Below are positions 19,261-23,345 of a stretch of DNA of 44,039 nt, piece after piece (the first letter of the stretch is position 1; every line of letters starts with the position of its first letter). The translations under genes were made by a program, and so were the position numbers. The stretch comes from Nitrospirota bacterium (GTDB lineage: Bacteria; Nitrospirota; Thermodesulfovibrionia; Thermodesulfovibrionales; UBA6898). The notes under the pieces were generated by a model. That model was not told the origin of the DNA and did no database searches. It saw nothing but the letters and a program-made list of their open reading frames with translations. The stretch is from contig JACRLQ010000004.1 of NCBI GenBank assembly GCA_016215155.1, positions 1 through 44,039 of the forward strand. Direction: 5' to 3'.

Positions 19261-20527
19261 GGCCCCTGACCTCCATCTTAAGCGAAAAGCGTTCCTCTCC
19301 GTCCTTGGCGATAATCGGGGCCGCGTAGGACACGTTCCTGAACGCGTCCGATTTCTCGAGCGCCATAACAAGCGAGGACGTCTTTCCGGTAAACCCTTCT
19401 ATTTCGACTTTCCCTCCGTCGTCGGCGGACATGCCTATCAGCCATGATCCTTCGGGGACTATCCGGCTTAGGTCCGAAAGCACCCTGGTGGCGACATTGC
19501 TCCTGCCTAGGAAATCGAGGACCGTATTTTTGTCCATCGTGAGCAGGTCGTTTTTTTTCTTTGCGTCAAGAAGTCCCGCCGCCCTGCTTTTGAGTTGCTC
19601 CCGCTTGGTCTCAAGGGCCCTCAAGGCCGATACGTCCTTATAATAAATTACTGCGCCCGTGAGAAAATAGATGATCACGGCCGCCGCAATGAGTCCGCCC
19701 ATCGCATACGGATAATAGTCAGGCCCTTTTCCTTCCTCACCCGCTTCAAGGAACTCAAGGTCCAGACGGTTTTTGCCGACCATCGAGAGCGCGAGGAACC
19801 TGGGCGTCTGTATGTGAAATTTAGTCCCGCCGAATTTTTCGGCCAGGCCCGAAGGCGGGTTGCCCGTAAAATATACCCCTCCGGGGCAGAGGGCCAGCAG
19901 TTTTTGTATCTCGGCCGCAAGGTCCGCTTCCTTTGGAAGGGATTTGGCATACATTGGCAGGGAGTTTTTCAGCCCGCATATTTCGCAGGCGTCACCTGTC
20001 ATATTTACAAAAACGCCGCTTAAGCGCCTGCCCCCGGACACCTCCAGAAGCCCCCTTAAGGCGGACAGGAAAGAGCAGCGCACCGAACTTACCCTGGTCC
20101 CGGATTCTCTTATCCGCCGTGTAAGATCATTCACAAACTCTTTCTTTATCGCGAGCACCATAGTGTTCGGTCTCCCGGGTTCGACGGGTATCGAAATGAA
20201 ATCAAATACATATTCATCCACCGGAAGCGGAAGGTACTTCTCAAGTTCAAAGAGCAGGGCGTTTCTGAGGTCCTGCCTCTTCATCGCGGGCATCTCTATC
20301 ATCTGATGTGAAAAATACCTCAGCGGAAGTCCTATTACAGCCTCTTCGACCAGATTTTCTTTCTTCCATCTCTCGAAGGAGCCGGCAATAAGTTTGTGCC
20401 GGTCTTCACCGGTCCGGGGCAAAGGGATGTCTTCATATTTTACAGGCTTCAGTGACCTGAACCCCCTGGCCGCGATAAACCCGCTCATGCTCTCGTGGCC
20501 TATATTAACTCCTGCCGTAATCCGCAT
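19250..20527 (-). CDS. gspL: GspL-type PilM-PilN fusion protein
   Basis: A 425-residue protein. Residues about 1-250 have the actin-like cytoplasmic fold of PilM/GspL (VIGLPLRYFSHQMIEMP, LPVDEYVFDFI). A membrane helix at about 272-292 and a coiled coil come next, then a PilN-like periplasmic domain (about 340-425: LSRIVPEGSWLIGMSADD...GFTGKTSSL). This matches the GspL architecture (PilM plus PilN in one chain). GspL bridges the GspE ATPase and the periplasmic GspM. It overlaps gspK by 23 bases and gspM by 11. Confidence 0.87.
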   Translation of the reverse strand: MRITAGVNIGHESMSGFIAARGFRSLKPVKYEDIPLPRTGEDRHKLIAGSFERWKKENLVEEAVIGLPLRYFSHQMIEMPAMKRQDLRNALLFELEKYLPLPVDEYVFDFISIPVEPGRPNTMVLAIKKEFVNDLTRRIRESGTRVSSVRCSFLSALRGLLEVSGGRRLSGVFVNMTGDACEICGLKNSLPMYAKSLPKEADLAAEIQKLLALCPGGVYFTGNPPSGLAEKFGGTKFHIQTPRFLALSMVGKNRLDLEFLEAGEEGKGPDYYPYAMGGLIAAAVIIYFLTGAVIYYKDVSALRALETKREQLKSRAAGLLDAKKKNDLLTMDKNTVLDFLGRSNVATRVLSDLSRIVPEGSWLIGMSADDGGKVEIEGFTGKTSSLVMALEKSDAFRNVSYAAPIIAKDGEERFSLKMEVRGLDK

Positions 20528-21635
20528 TCTCTCTCCAGTACATGGTCTGAACTTTGTAACCTTTTCCCCTGAACTGCCTGTTTATGACCGCCGTTATTTT
20601 GGAAGAGACCTTGCTGTTGGCCGCCCTTCCGGTGACCTCGATCCTCAGGTTATTCGACGTCATGGAACTGAACCCGCGCGCTATAAAATCCGGGGGAACG
20701 AGCCTGAGGCCACCGGATTCAGGGTTTCTCTGTTTCATAATGAACTCTATCTCGAAACTGCTAAGCCCCATCATTTCCATGACTTCTCTTGATGCGGTAT
20801 TAATATTCATTGCGCCGCTGCCGAATGTGGTGACCAAAGGAAGGACTGACCTTAAATCACTCCCTCCGTACAGGTGTTCGGGCTTCATGCCCTTGACAAG
20901 CAAAAGTTCCTCCGGCACATCGAAGGGGGCGTTCTTTGTTTTATACGGCTCCTCGAGCGCCTCGTAATATTCATCCTCGGCGCCCATCAACCGATGTTCC
21001 TTGTCCGGGTCACGCCAGTCCATTATACAATCAATCACCTCATTCAGGGCCTCTTCCTTTACACCGGCGTTCATGAACAGCCGTCTCAGGCTCTCGGGTG
21101 GGGCGGTGTTGATGTTTATCTTCGAGTCTTCGTCCGATATCAATATCTCTATTTCACCTTCGGGGGTTGTCCTTTTTCCCGTAACGGGAGGTGTATCTTT
21201 ATCGACCCTGTAATTTCCGTCGGAATCGTGAAAATCAAATGTCTGGTCCTTGTCGGACATGATATATTCGACGGCCTCATGATAGCCGGAGAGGGCCATA
21301 TAATAAGAAAGGGTCTCTTCCTTCATATTACGTGTGGCCGCCGAATTGTGCCTGGTCGAACTCAGGTGGTTCAACGCTATTATGCTGAGCAGCACGAATA
21401 TCCAGAGGACCATCATCAGCGCCATTCCGTCTTCCTGAAGACGTAAACGATAAGGTGAACAGTCAAAGGTGAAACGTGAACGAAGACGCGAACAAAGACG
21501 TGAAATCTGAAACGTGAAACGTGTATAGTTAAGGAGTCGTGAACGGTAAAATATAAAATAACGTACCAGAACGCTTTGCCTGAGTTCAGCCTCCGCGGAT
21601 CGTATCTTACAGTCAGATTTATTATGATGTTTCAT
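20505..21635 (-). CDS. gspK: Type II secretion minor pseudopilin GspK (5' end uncertain)
   Basis: A prepilin-type cleavage site, EDG before MALMMVLWIFVLLSIIALN, gives a 304-residue mature GspK. It is followed by the helix-hairpin-helix region (INTAPPESLRRLF; AMNINTASREVMEMMG) and the Asp/Glu-rich DWRDPDKEHRLMGAEDEYY loop that binds calcium in homologues. The reading frame extends about 70 residues upstream of the cleavage site, through Arg/Phe-rich sequence (SRLRSRFTF) encoded by GTGAA-type repeats. No ATG, GTG or TTG lies closer than 21635, and no ribosome site is evident there or at the GTG at 21647. GspK normally has a leader of only about 6-40 residues, so the start may be non-standard or displaced by the repeat tract. 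Confidence 0.85.
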   Translation of the reverse strand: MKHHNKSDCKIRSAEAELRQSVLVRYFIFYRSRLLNYTRFTFQISRLCSRLRSRFTFDCSPYRLRLQEDGMALMMVLWIFVLLSIIALNHLSSTRHNSAATRNMKEETLSYYMALSGYHEAVEYIMSDKDQTFDFHDSDGNYRVDKDTPPVTGKRTTPEGEIEILISDEDSKININTAPPESLRRLFMNAGVKEEALNEVIDCIMDWRDPDKEHRLMGAEDEYYEALEEPYKTKNAPFDVPEELLLVKGMKPEHLYGGSDLRSVLPLVTTFGSGAMNINTASREVMEMMGLSSFEIEFIMKQRNPESGGLRLVPPDFIARGFSSMTSNNLRIEVTGRAANSKVSSKITAVINRQFRGKGYKVQTMYWRENADYGRS

Positions 21636-21664
21636 TTCACTTTTCACAATTCACATTTCACGCT
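21448..21664. repeat. Degenerate GTGAA/TTTCAC repeat tract
   Basis: Clustered short units, GGTGAACAG, GGTGAAACGTGAACG, ACGTGAAATC, GAAACGTGAAACGTG (left part), and TTTCATTTCACTTTTCACAATTCACATTTCACG in opposite polarity at 21630-21661. The left cluster reads as GTGAA and the right as TTCAC on the plus strand, so the two halves form an imperfect long inverted repeat around an ordinary stretch. It covers the gspE-gspK junction and the 5' part of the gspK frame. Confidence 0.7.
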
Positions 21665-21668
21665 TTTT

Positions 21669-23345
21669 TTATAGTTCCACCTGGGTCACCCTCAATACCT
21701 CATCCAGGGTAGTCATTCCGTTTATTACCTTCTGGATGCCGTCTTCACTCAGCGTCCTCATGCCCAGTTGTATGGCCTTCTCCTTTATTTCCCGTACGGT
21801 AGCGTGCGCCATAATCAGGTTGCGGATTTCATCGGTTATAGGCAGGACTTCAAAGATGCCCATCCTCCCCCTGTAGCCGGTCCCCGAACACTGCTCACAC
21901 CCCCTGCCGACCCAGATAGAATCCACGTCCCTGTTAAATCTCTTGAGAAAATCAGACGATACGGGCTGTTCTTCCCTGCAATTCCGGCAGATGCGCCTTA
22001 CGAGTCTCTGCGCCACGACACAGATCAGGGTCGAAGAAACCAGGTAGTTTTCGATGCCCATATCCATCAGTCTCGTTATGGCGCCCGGTGCGTCGTTTGT
22101 ATGGAGTGTGCTGAACAGGAGATGACCCGTAAGGGCCGCATGTATCGAAATATTGGCGGTCTCCATGTCCCTGATCTCACCTACCATGATGACGTCAGGG
22201 TCCTGTCTGACTATATGCCTCAGGCCGCTTGCAAACGTGAGCCCGATTTTGGGCCTGACCTGGATCTGGTTGATCCCCGGCATCAGGTATTCCACCGGTT
22301 CTTCAACCGTTATTATTTTCTTTTCGGGTGAGTTGATTTTGTCTAAAGAGGCATAGAGGGTCGTCGACTTTCCGCTTCCGGTCGGGCCCGTGATGAGGAC
22401 CATGCCGTAAGGCTTCTTTATTACAGCTTCATAGATGTCCAGGATCAACCGGTCGAACCCGATCTCCTCGAGAGTGACAAAGGAGGTCTCCTTGTCGAGC
22501 AGTCGCATAACGATACTTTCGCCGTAGATGGTAGGAAGTGTCGAGACCCTTATATCGATGGCCCGCCCCCCGACGGTGACCTTGATCCTGCCGTCCTGGG
22601 GGAGTCGTCTTTCAGCGATGTTCATCTGAGACAGGAGCTTGATCCTCGAAGATATGGCGGAGTATGCGCGCGCCGGAAATATCTCTTTTTCATACAGGAT
22701 CCCGTCTATGCGGTACCTGGCCCTGACACTATGCTCGCCCGGTTCTATATGTATATCGCTGGCCCTGTCCTTGACGGCGTTTTCGATGACCAGATTCACG
22801 AGCTGTATTATACCTTTTTCCTGCGCGAGGTCCCTCAAGTGACTGATTTCTCCGGTTACGTCCGTCTCGGGCGTCTCGTCTTCTTCCGTGTCTTCGATCA
22901 GGCGCTGCATGACGGCGCTTCTCGAACCGCTTACGATATGGAGATGGTCCAGGATATCCGATTTTTTTGAAATATATACCTCCAGCTCATAACCGAAAGA
23001 GGATTTGAGCGCGTCGAGGCCCTCGGTATTCAAAGGGTCGGCCACCGCTATCTTAAGCAGATTATCTTTCAGCGAAAGCGGCAGCAGAAGGTTGTTTTCA
23101 AGAAAACTGAACGATATTTTCTCGAGGGGGATCTGGTCCGGAAAATCCTTCGGGTCCGCAAGAGGCAGGCGGAACTGTGCCGACAGCGCCTCAAGGAACC
23201 TGTCGACCGGGAATTCAGAATCCAGCAATATCTCGCCGAATTTCCTTTTGGCGGTGTCGGACCGCTGTATTTCAAGGGTCCTGTCGATCTCCGCGGCCGT
23301 TATATAGCCCATATCCAGAAGTATTTCGCCTATTCTTTTATTCAT
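21669..23345 (-). CDS. gspE: Type II secretion ATPase GspE
   Basis: A 558-residue cytoplasmic secretion ATPase. The N-terminal part has a type II secretion GspE N-domain (IGEILLDMGYITAAEIDRTL...FGEILLDS). The ATPase core has an Asp/Arg-rich segment (RASDIHIEP), Walker A GPTGSGKST at about 320, an Asp box (TVEEPVEY), Walker B (DPDVIMVGEIRD) and a His box (LLFSTLHTNDA). A tetracysteine zinc element (CRNCRE ... GCEQC) follows. It powers pseudopilus growth. A PilB role cannot be excluded by sequence alone, but position among gsp genes supports GspE. It sits 27 bases after mlaD and 33 bases before the listed gspK start. Confidence 0.93.
   Translation of the reverse strand: MNKRIGEILLDMGYITAAEIDRTLEIQRSDTAKRKFGEILLDSEFPVDRFLEALSAQFRLPLADPKDFPDQIPLEKISFSFLENNLLLPLSLKDNLLKIAVADPLNTEGLDALKSSFGYELEVYISKKSDILDHLHIVSGSRSAVMQRLIEDTEEDETPETDVTGEISHLRDLAQEKGIIQLVNLVIENAVKDRASDIHIEPGEHSVRARYRIDGILYEKEIFPARAYSAISSRIKLLSQMNIAERRLPQDGRIKVTVGGRAIDIRVSTLPTIYGESIVMRLLDKETSFVTLEEIGFDRLILDIYEAVIKKPYGMVLITGPTGSGKSTTLYASLDKINSPEKKIITVEEPVEYLMPGINQIQVRPKIGLTFASGLRHIVRQDPDVIMVGEIRDMETANISIHAALTGHLLFSTLHTNDAPGAITRLMDMGIENYLVSSTLICVVAQRLVRRICRNCREEQPVSSDFLKRFNRDVDSIWVGRGCEQCSGTGYRGRMGIFEVLPITDEIRNLIMAHATVREIKEKAIQLGMRTLSEDGIQKVINGMTTLDEVLRVTQVEL

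Follow-up and report, generated by a model that had tools for sequence, protein, structure and literature searches.

A degenerate heptanucleotide tract at a gspE–gspK junction in the Nitrospirota and its probable use as a prepilin leader

Tandem repeats with a 7-nt period are known from several groups of bacteria. The heptameric simple sequence repeats described in Xanthomonas (GGGAATC/GGGANTN) and Nostoc (GGGGA(T/C)T) include convergent inverted pairs, 70 and 75 cases in two strains (PMC4692102). As described there, they resemble the tracts considered here in their 7-nt tandem units, two degenerate positions, mostly intergenic placement, inverted pairs and variability between close relatives. 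They differ in three respects: the present units are not G-rich, one junction holds different units in different genomes, and many tracts lie in frame in the export leaders of conserved proteins. The TAACTGA direct repeats of Beggiatoaceae, Cyanobacteria and Bacteroidetes are also heptamers near start codons, of which one orientation closes three frames and the other is translatable; their interior copies are reported in the open orientation, mostly near protein ends (PMC4679880). According to the same paper, the main text of which does not contain the term 'signal peptide', their sequence is conserved and related heptamers are rare, whereas the present tracts keep the period and not the sequence (PMC4679880). 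Rickettsia palindromic elements and enterobacterial miniature inverted-repeat elements (MITEs) with open reading frames (ORFs) share with the present tracts the in-frame fusion to conserved genes, and the signal peptide of Yersinia YPO1552 is partly formed by a MITE (PMC2229807, PMC2759123). As described in these sources, however, such elements are about 100–200 bp long, with family sequences and terminal inverted repeats, whereas the present copies mostly share 7-nt arrays only. Judged against these accounts, degenerate heptameric repeats, inverted pairs, a frame-closing orientation and a MITE-derived signal peptide are already known. A search of open-licence PMC papers found no account of heptamer tracts recurring as the leaders of conserved exported proteins.

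The window, a stretch of 44,039 nucleotides, is contig C99 of a 3.43 Mb draft genome of a Nitrospirota bacterium in 101 contigs, here labelled G000. Its minus strand carries gspE (21669–23345), gspK (20505–21647), a PilN-domain (GspL-like) gene and, at a greater distance, a secretin gene. The gspK product matches the Pfam domain T2SSK_1st (PF21687, E 1.2e-16). This domain, a Gly before the hydrophobic start and the adjoining gspE, PilN-domain and secretin genes are features of GspK, a minor pseudopilin of type II secretion systems. The leader sets the window's protein apart: it is repeat-coded and about 70 residues long, compared with about 5–21 residues in family loci with short spacers. The parts of the junction, in the direction of transcription, are as follows.

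21669–23345, minus strand: gspE, with C-terminus VTQVEL; its 3' end reads CTATAA, with no GTG or ATG start over its stop.
21636–21661, minus strand: GTGAA arm; along the gspK coding strand it comprises four GTGAANN units spaced 7 nt apart, which place TGA in each of the three frames and supply candidate GTG starts.
21645–21647, minus strand: GTG, the first candidate gspK start, contributed by a repeat unit.
21633–21635, minus strand: ATG, the second candidate gspK start, at the end of the GTGAA arm.
21544–21632, minus strand: mid-tract between the arms, with the gspK frame open throughout; a repeat-family search of it reported none.
21455–21543, minus strand: TTCAC arm, in which the gspK coding strand has six TTCAC units, forming an Arg/Phe/Ser-rich part of the leader.
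21426–21437, minus strand: leader end QEDG, whose final Gly precedes the predicted prepilin cleavage site; it contains AGGA.
20505–21425, minus strand: mature GspK, a T2SS minor pseudopilin beginning MALMMVLWIF, with ATG as codon 1.

The distance from gspE to mature GspK is 243 nt, and the coding strand presents first the four GTGAA units and then the six TTCAC units; on the plus strand, these are six GTGAA units in 21455–21543 and four TTCAC units in 21636–21661, at exact 7-nt spacing. In the whole window, GTGAANNGTGAA is matched with at most one mismatch ten times, always in the gspE–gspK spacer, whereas 100 shuffles average 2.26 matches and never exceed 6. The best lag among 4–12 is 7 (17 of 21 matches), tied with lag 12. 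A sequence-only reading of this DNA had placed GTGAA/TTCAC units on both flanks of the junction; the units exist, but they are the two arms of one inverted tract within the spacer, the GTGAA arm coming first along transcription. Its observation that the plus-strand GTGAA cluster at 21455–21543 is open in the gspK frame and encodes an Arg/Phe-rich peptide just before the predicted cleavage site is confirmed.

From GTG 21647 to that site the gspK frame comprises 74 open codons, or 75 if the preceding ATT is counted, and the leader ends in YTRFTFQISRLCSRLRSRFTFDCSPYRLRLQEDG directly before MALMMVLWIF. With a slash for the cut, the predicted prepilin cleavage motif is EDG/MALMMVLWIFVLLSII in the window and, by eye, G/IALMM and similar in relatives; cleavage after Gly, ahead of the hydrophobic stretch, accords with the prepilin motif. 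As proof of leader translation the open frame is too weak, with a chance probability of 0.038 (3000 dinucleotide shuffles) and a TTCAC arm that is open by nature; in a second frame across the tract, too, stops are confined to the GTGAA arm. It had further been remarked that no standard start codon lies within about 70 residues of the cleavage site. Upstream this holds: ATG 21635 and GTG 21647 stand 70 and 74 codons before it, and no ATG, GTG or TTG occurs between ATG 21635 and the site. The remark overlooked residue +1, which is itself an ATG (21425–21423) with AGGA 7 nt before it. We infer that the leader is translated from GTG 21647 or ATG 21635 and processed by prepilin peptidase.

Relatives were compared at the same junction. 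The gspK search covered 61 genomes, mostly drafts in many contigs, and gave matches in 52, the best 30 of which were taken as loci (21 in the family, nine in other families); the junction count omits six of the 27 family genomes (G001, G009, G016, G021, G022 and G023), for which this search gave no full-length close gspK. Spacers between gspE and gspK measure 14–243 nt in the 21 family loci and 14–37 nt in the eight of nine other-family loci that were measurable, the gspE end of L022 not being located. By eye, a GTG or ATG gspK start overlaps the gspE stop by 4 nt in 12 of the 21 family loci; such a start is absent from the window. The nine family loci with spacers below 71 nt have, by eye, leaders of about 5–21 residues, so that the gspK 5' ends of short-spacer relatives do not share a common long leader. 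Because these 9 of 21 family loci lack a long tract, it is dispensable for the family.

The longer spacers have a period in common. In all 12 family spacers of at least 71 nt the best lag of 4–12 is 7, with two ties with lag 12. Strong lag-7 runs, defined by 16 of 21 matches, number 11 in 7 of the 21 family spacers (2,005 nt in total), compared with none in the remaining 79,723 nt of these loci; at lags 5, 8, 10, 11 and 13 there are none anywhere in the 21 loci. Read by eye, the junction units are GTGAANN in G000, G012 and G019, GTAAGGC-like in G017, GTTATGA-like in G008, AAAGGTC-like in G015 and TTCAAAA-like in G013. Across genomes, the gspE–gspK junction preserves the period and not the unit sequence. 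The long spacers of L005 (G006) and L009 (G007) hold a different repeat-like sequence (in L005, CCCCTC...CTTTG...CAAAGAGGGG-like), across much of which the gspK frame is open; the only starts in L005 are TTG.

The genetic code accounts for the orientation in which such tracts are read. Enumeration of all 4096 choices of three spacer dinucleotides shows that no frame survives three GTGAANN units (4096 of 4096 cases), and that every frame stays open through three TTCACNN units (4096 of 4096). Any frame entering from gspE is therefore terminated in the GTGAA arm, which also provides new GTG starts, and the TTCAC arm can be read in any frame. A second arm (at least two exact units within 300 nt) accompanies 15 of 70 anchors, a count of exact units only that excludes weaker arms. 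The TTCAC cluster (at least two units, at most 300 nt from the GTGAA anchor) lies downstream in 15 of 15, with L034 counted once and L066 and L117 among the few possible chance cases.

The reading preferred here, at a probability of roughly two in three, is that a degenerate heptamer tract grew in the gspE–gspK junction and, once translated, takes the place of the native prepilin leader, as one case of a lineage habit. It builds on the observed tract, its period, the open frame, the short leaders of relatives, the recurrence at this junction and in other leaders, and the orientation bias. The proposed course is this. (i) An inverted-arm heptanucleotide tract, GTGAANN followed by TTCACNN, would have grown within a normally very short gspE–gspK junction. 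(ii) The 7-nt period brings the TGA of GTGAA into all three frames within three units. (iii) The junction now lacks the usual overlapping gspK start, and the tract would be translated as a prepilin leader of about 70 residues. (iv) The TTCAC units, open in any frame, give F-T-x-H-x-S-(L/R/H/P/Q) peptides. (v) The replacement leader would end in the retained motif EDG/MALMM. (vi) As a habit of the lineage, 7-nt tracts would appear or lengthen where genes adjoin closely, each genome having its typical unit dialect, and would stay in frame chiefly where a tolerant N-terminus is removed by cleavage, as in prepilin leaders and Sec signal peptides. Several points count against it: shared ancestry explains part of the recurrence across genomes, drafts of many contigs could contain a misassembled repeat tract or a misplaced contig, and copies alike beyond the arrays would also be compatible with insertion.

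The best surviving alternative, itself unlikely, is that GspK starts leaderless at ATG 21425, residue +1, needs no cleavage, and follows a tract that is merely untranslated spacer. The AGGA 7 nt upstream of this ATG could serve as a ribosome site, and no clear one is seen by eye at GTG 21647 or ATG 21635; yet the leader end EDG and the frame are preserved, with 74 codons open. The remaining 29 loci have I, V, F or Y at residue +1; the tract-bearing relatives L007, L010 and L013, having no Met at this position, require an upstream start. Another GspK with a repeat leader (L107) likewise has Met at +1, so this residue is not special to loss of the leader. The E. coli GspK, too, carries Met at +1, following a leader that is cleaved.

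The replacement-leader reading extends beyond one junction. In G000, ten matches to three tandem GTGAANN units represent nine arrays at eight places, including the gspE–gspK junction; the reversed control gives two. The repeat is not unique to the junction, as the sequence-only reading had allowed: three-tandem GTGAANN matches occupy eight places in G000 and occur in 14 of the 27 family genomes. Of 295 genomes sampled from the phylum, 79 have at least four tandem units. For most family matches the surroundings were covered (60 stretches and eight G000 loci, omitting ten places: the eight of G023, plus G019:C57 and G021:C149). Strong lag-7 runs number 11 in 444 kb of G000 versus 0–5 at other lags, with two further runs of N left out, and 5 in 200 kb of G008 versus 0–4; in 200 kb of G017 lag 7 is not prominent, with 3 runs versus 0–7 elsewhere (7 at lag 12). 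The excess of 7-nt runs over other lags in G000 and G008 is modest. A genome-wide 7-nt periodicity was considered and rejected, there being no lag-7 peak in inter-ORF DNA (444 kb of G000, 200 kb each of G017 and G008); the 7-nt signal is limited to scattered tracts.

Of 71 anchors, 70 were kept, the minus-strand anchor of L034 being dropped as the second arm of one element. Thirty-five are intergenic, 21 lie in the first 90 codons of an ORF and 11 deeper, these 32 with TTCAC coding, and three have GTGAA coding; the classes are mechanical, so that the window's site (L039) and L120a fall under intergenic and L102, a carboxypeptidase leader, under inside. Internal stretches were also seen. KdsB-like cytidylyltransferases of G007 (L066:1315–2070) and G009 (L086:1222–1977) carry an in-frame heptamer insert at the identical internal place (DLKQFTIHDSRFTVFKH and DLNQFTVHGSRFTVFKH), and heptamer-coded stretches lie within a ferrochelatase (L067), CobU (L080), a PurL-like protein (L096) and a ManC-like protein (L099). 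By eye, tracts stand beside or between apparent tRNA genes at L037, L097, L109, L074, L105, L065 and L116. GTGAA tracts occupy apparently one common junction in three genomes (L090, L098 and L104), and in L090 a protein whose N-terminus is signal-like probably starts at the GTG of a repeat unit. In L038 of G000 (1501–1530), the likely start of the next gene is the final GTG of a three-unit tract.

Among the 21 N-terminal TTCAC cases, 18 have a Pfam match: TolB (4), Peptidase_S11 (3), the N-terminal methylation motif (3, one below the curated cut-off), Peripla_BP_2 (2), and one each of CbiM, T2SSK, LptD, cytochrome c, ATP-synt_B with a signal-like leader, and ACR_tran. By judgement, and as a plain count, 17 of these 18 appear to be proteins with an export signal, a prepilin leader or a signal-like leader. 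The Peptidase_S11 cases with in-frame tract leaders are D-Ala-D-Ala carboxypeptidases and those of Peripla_BP_2 are periplasmic binding proteins; in the ACR_tran case, an inner-membrane pump, the start is probably downstream of the repeat and the N-terminal extension may be false. The three cases without a Pfam match (L072, L079 and L100) may not be genes. With cleavage predicted by eye and marked by a slash, repeat leaders read MRNRLAVSLFTFHFLPCVVPSAYA/MHISEGILP in CbiM of G000, MRRVFFIFLLFTFHLSLFTAVQA/KVYIDI and MKKQFTVICLLLLLFTIHCSLFTVAEA/KVYIDI in TolB of G012 and G006, and MMKVQIILKKLFTVHCSLFTAKKG/FTLIEILLV in a pseudopilin of G006 (L070), a stretch identical in G289. Over 3,001 nt, L070 (G006:C27) and L187 (G289:C100) are 100% identical, although the two genomes are filed in different families; this points to a contig misplaced in either draft, or to a transfer in the very recent past.

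TolB leaders of the family reach a lag-7 score of at least 16 in 6 of 25, compared with none of 150 values across six other lags. In their best 12 residues the six repeat-coded leaders are somewhat less hydrophobic than the other 19 (Kyte–Doolittle 2.0–3.0 versus 2.4–3.5). The frame open upstream of tolB in G000 (L132) holds another repeat-like peptide (VIPAQAGIHVSRASKWTPAFAGVT), which resembles a widespread intergenic repeat.

Prepilin leaders were surveyed across the phylum. Two TTCAC units with a GFTLxE motif after them give 28 matches in 13 of 295 genomes, and the reversed control none in all 295. The 28 matches amount to 18 sites, and each of the 17 distinct leaders read is open across the repeat. 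A scrambled-unit control, confined to the 13 positive genomes, gives one match, itself a 7-nt repeat of a different unit. The bare motif GFTLxE occurs at 135 sites in those 13 genomes, and 18 of 135 is no rate because the genomes were picked for being positive. In G259 such leaders stand on four neighbouring genes of one contig. The L181 prepilin has no standard start codon across its entire 41-residue open stretch, as is also true of the window's leader after ATG 21635. A broader proposal, tentative and somewhat less probable than its contrary, is that inverted heptamer tracts act as ready-made export-signal cassettes. The GTGAA arm would give a GTG start and a Lys/Arg-rich n-region, and the TTCAC arm a stop-free Phe/Leu/Ser/Thr h-region or, as TTCACGN, an Arg-bearing prepilin leader; such tracts would have been recruited repeatedly in the phylum, serving conserved exported proteins as functional signal peptides or prepilin leaders.

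As to origin, replication slippage, the explanation quoted for heptamers in general in two of the papers above (PMC4679880, PMC4692102), would be the main source of tract growth. The genomes compared comprise one per species, and a search for relatives, which may omit very close records, found no conspecific strain. It may be speculated that the tract was seeded at the gspE–gspK start–stop overlap, because the overlapping GTGA(A) there contains the core of the unit; other genomes have other units at this place. Spacer-dinucleotide identity is 0.247 within genomes versus 0.103 between them, a difference reached in 0 of 2000 permutations; the likeness within genomes fits spread or renewal of units inside each genome.

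A quite unlikely alternative to growth in place is insertion of a mobile palindromic element, MITE-like or RPE-like, into the junction. The arms are inverted and their order is fixed (15 of 15), but a second cluster is absent for 55 of the 71 anchors. Copies lie between genes and within conserved ORFs (the KdsB-like cytidylyltransferase, ferrochelatase and CobU), and MITEs fused in frame, one forming part of a signal peptide, provide a described precedent (PMC2229807); at the gspE–gspK junction, however, the period is constant and the unit variable between genomes. Within-genome BLAST of 68 loci gave matches mostly of 25–54 nt, covering the arrays alone, and at the window's site found no likeness extending beyond the arrays. 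Against this stand two-arm copies in G006 alike over 75–97 nt (L073/L076 at 83%, L073/L084 at 74%) and two sites in G004 alike over 305 nt at 88% (L091/L092); some copies may therefore have moved as units. The two G004 sites (contig C48) are about 32 kb apart; their likeness is partly inverted, with short repeats around it and a four-unit GTGAA array at one end. The sequence-only reading had suggested that a mobile or expanding repeat replaced the native leader. Replacement or extension by an expanding repeat is borne out by the short leaders of relatives and the presence of the repeat elsewhere; mobility is not, since the unit differs between genomes at the junction and matches are mostly arrays alone, though some copies in G006 and G004 are alike over a longer stretch. 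An altered gspK translation, which that reading had also suggested, is conjectural.

Very unlikely is a regulatory role, in which the tract would form a structure in RNA or DNA (hairpin, terminator or protein site) setting the gspE:gspK expression ratio. In its favour are the inverted arms, the candidate start within the first arm, and the proposal for Beggiatoaceae that heptamers upstream of start codons are translational sites (PMC4679880). Against it, the junction RNA is no more stably folded than its shuffles (z -0.90; 36 of 200 at least as stable), the junction has no terminator-like site and no Rfam match at E up to 1, and its sequence is unconserved between relatives. Two weak promoter-like sites occur there, where shuffles average 0.5.

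The origin of signal peptides and prepilin leaders, which evolve fast, is seldom observed. In this phylum a simple repeat, one strand of which is stop-free in all frames, seems on several occasions to have been taken into the leaders of conserved export proteins, a concrete route from noncoding repeat to protein signal. Annotated gene starts around such repeats may often be wrong, and heptamer tracts may show one way in which new export signals arise.
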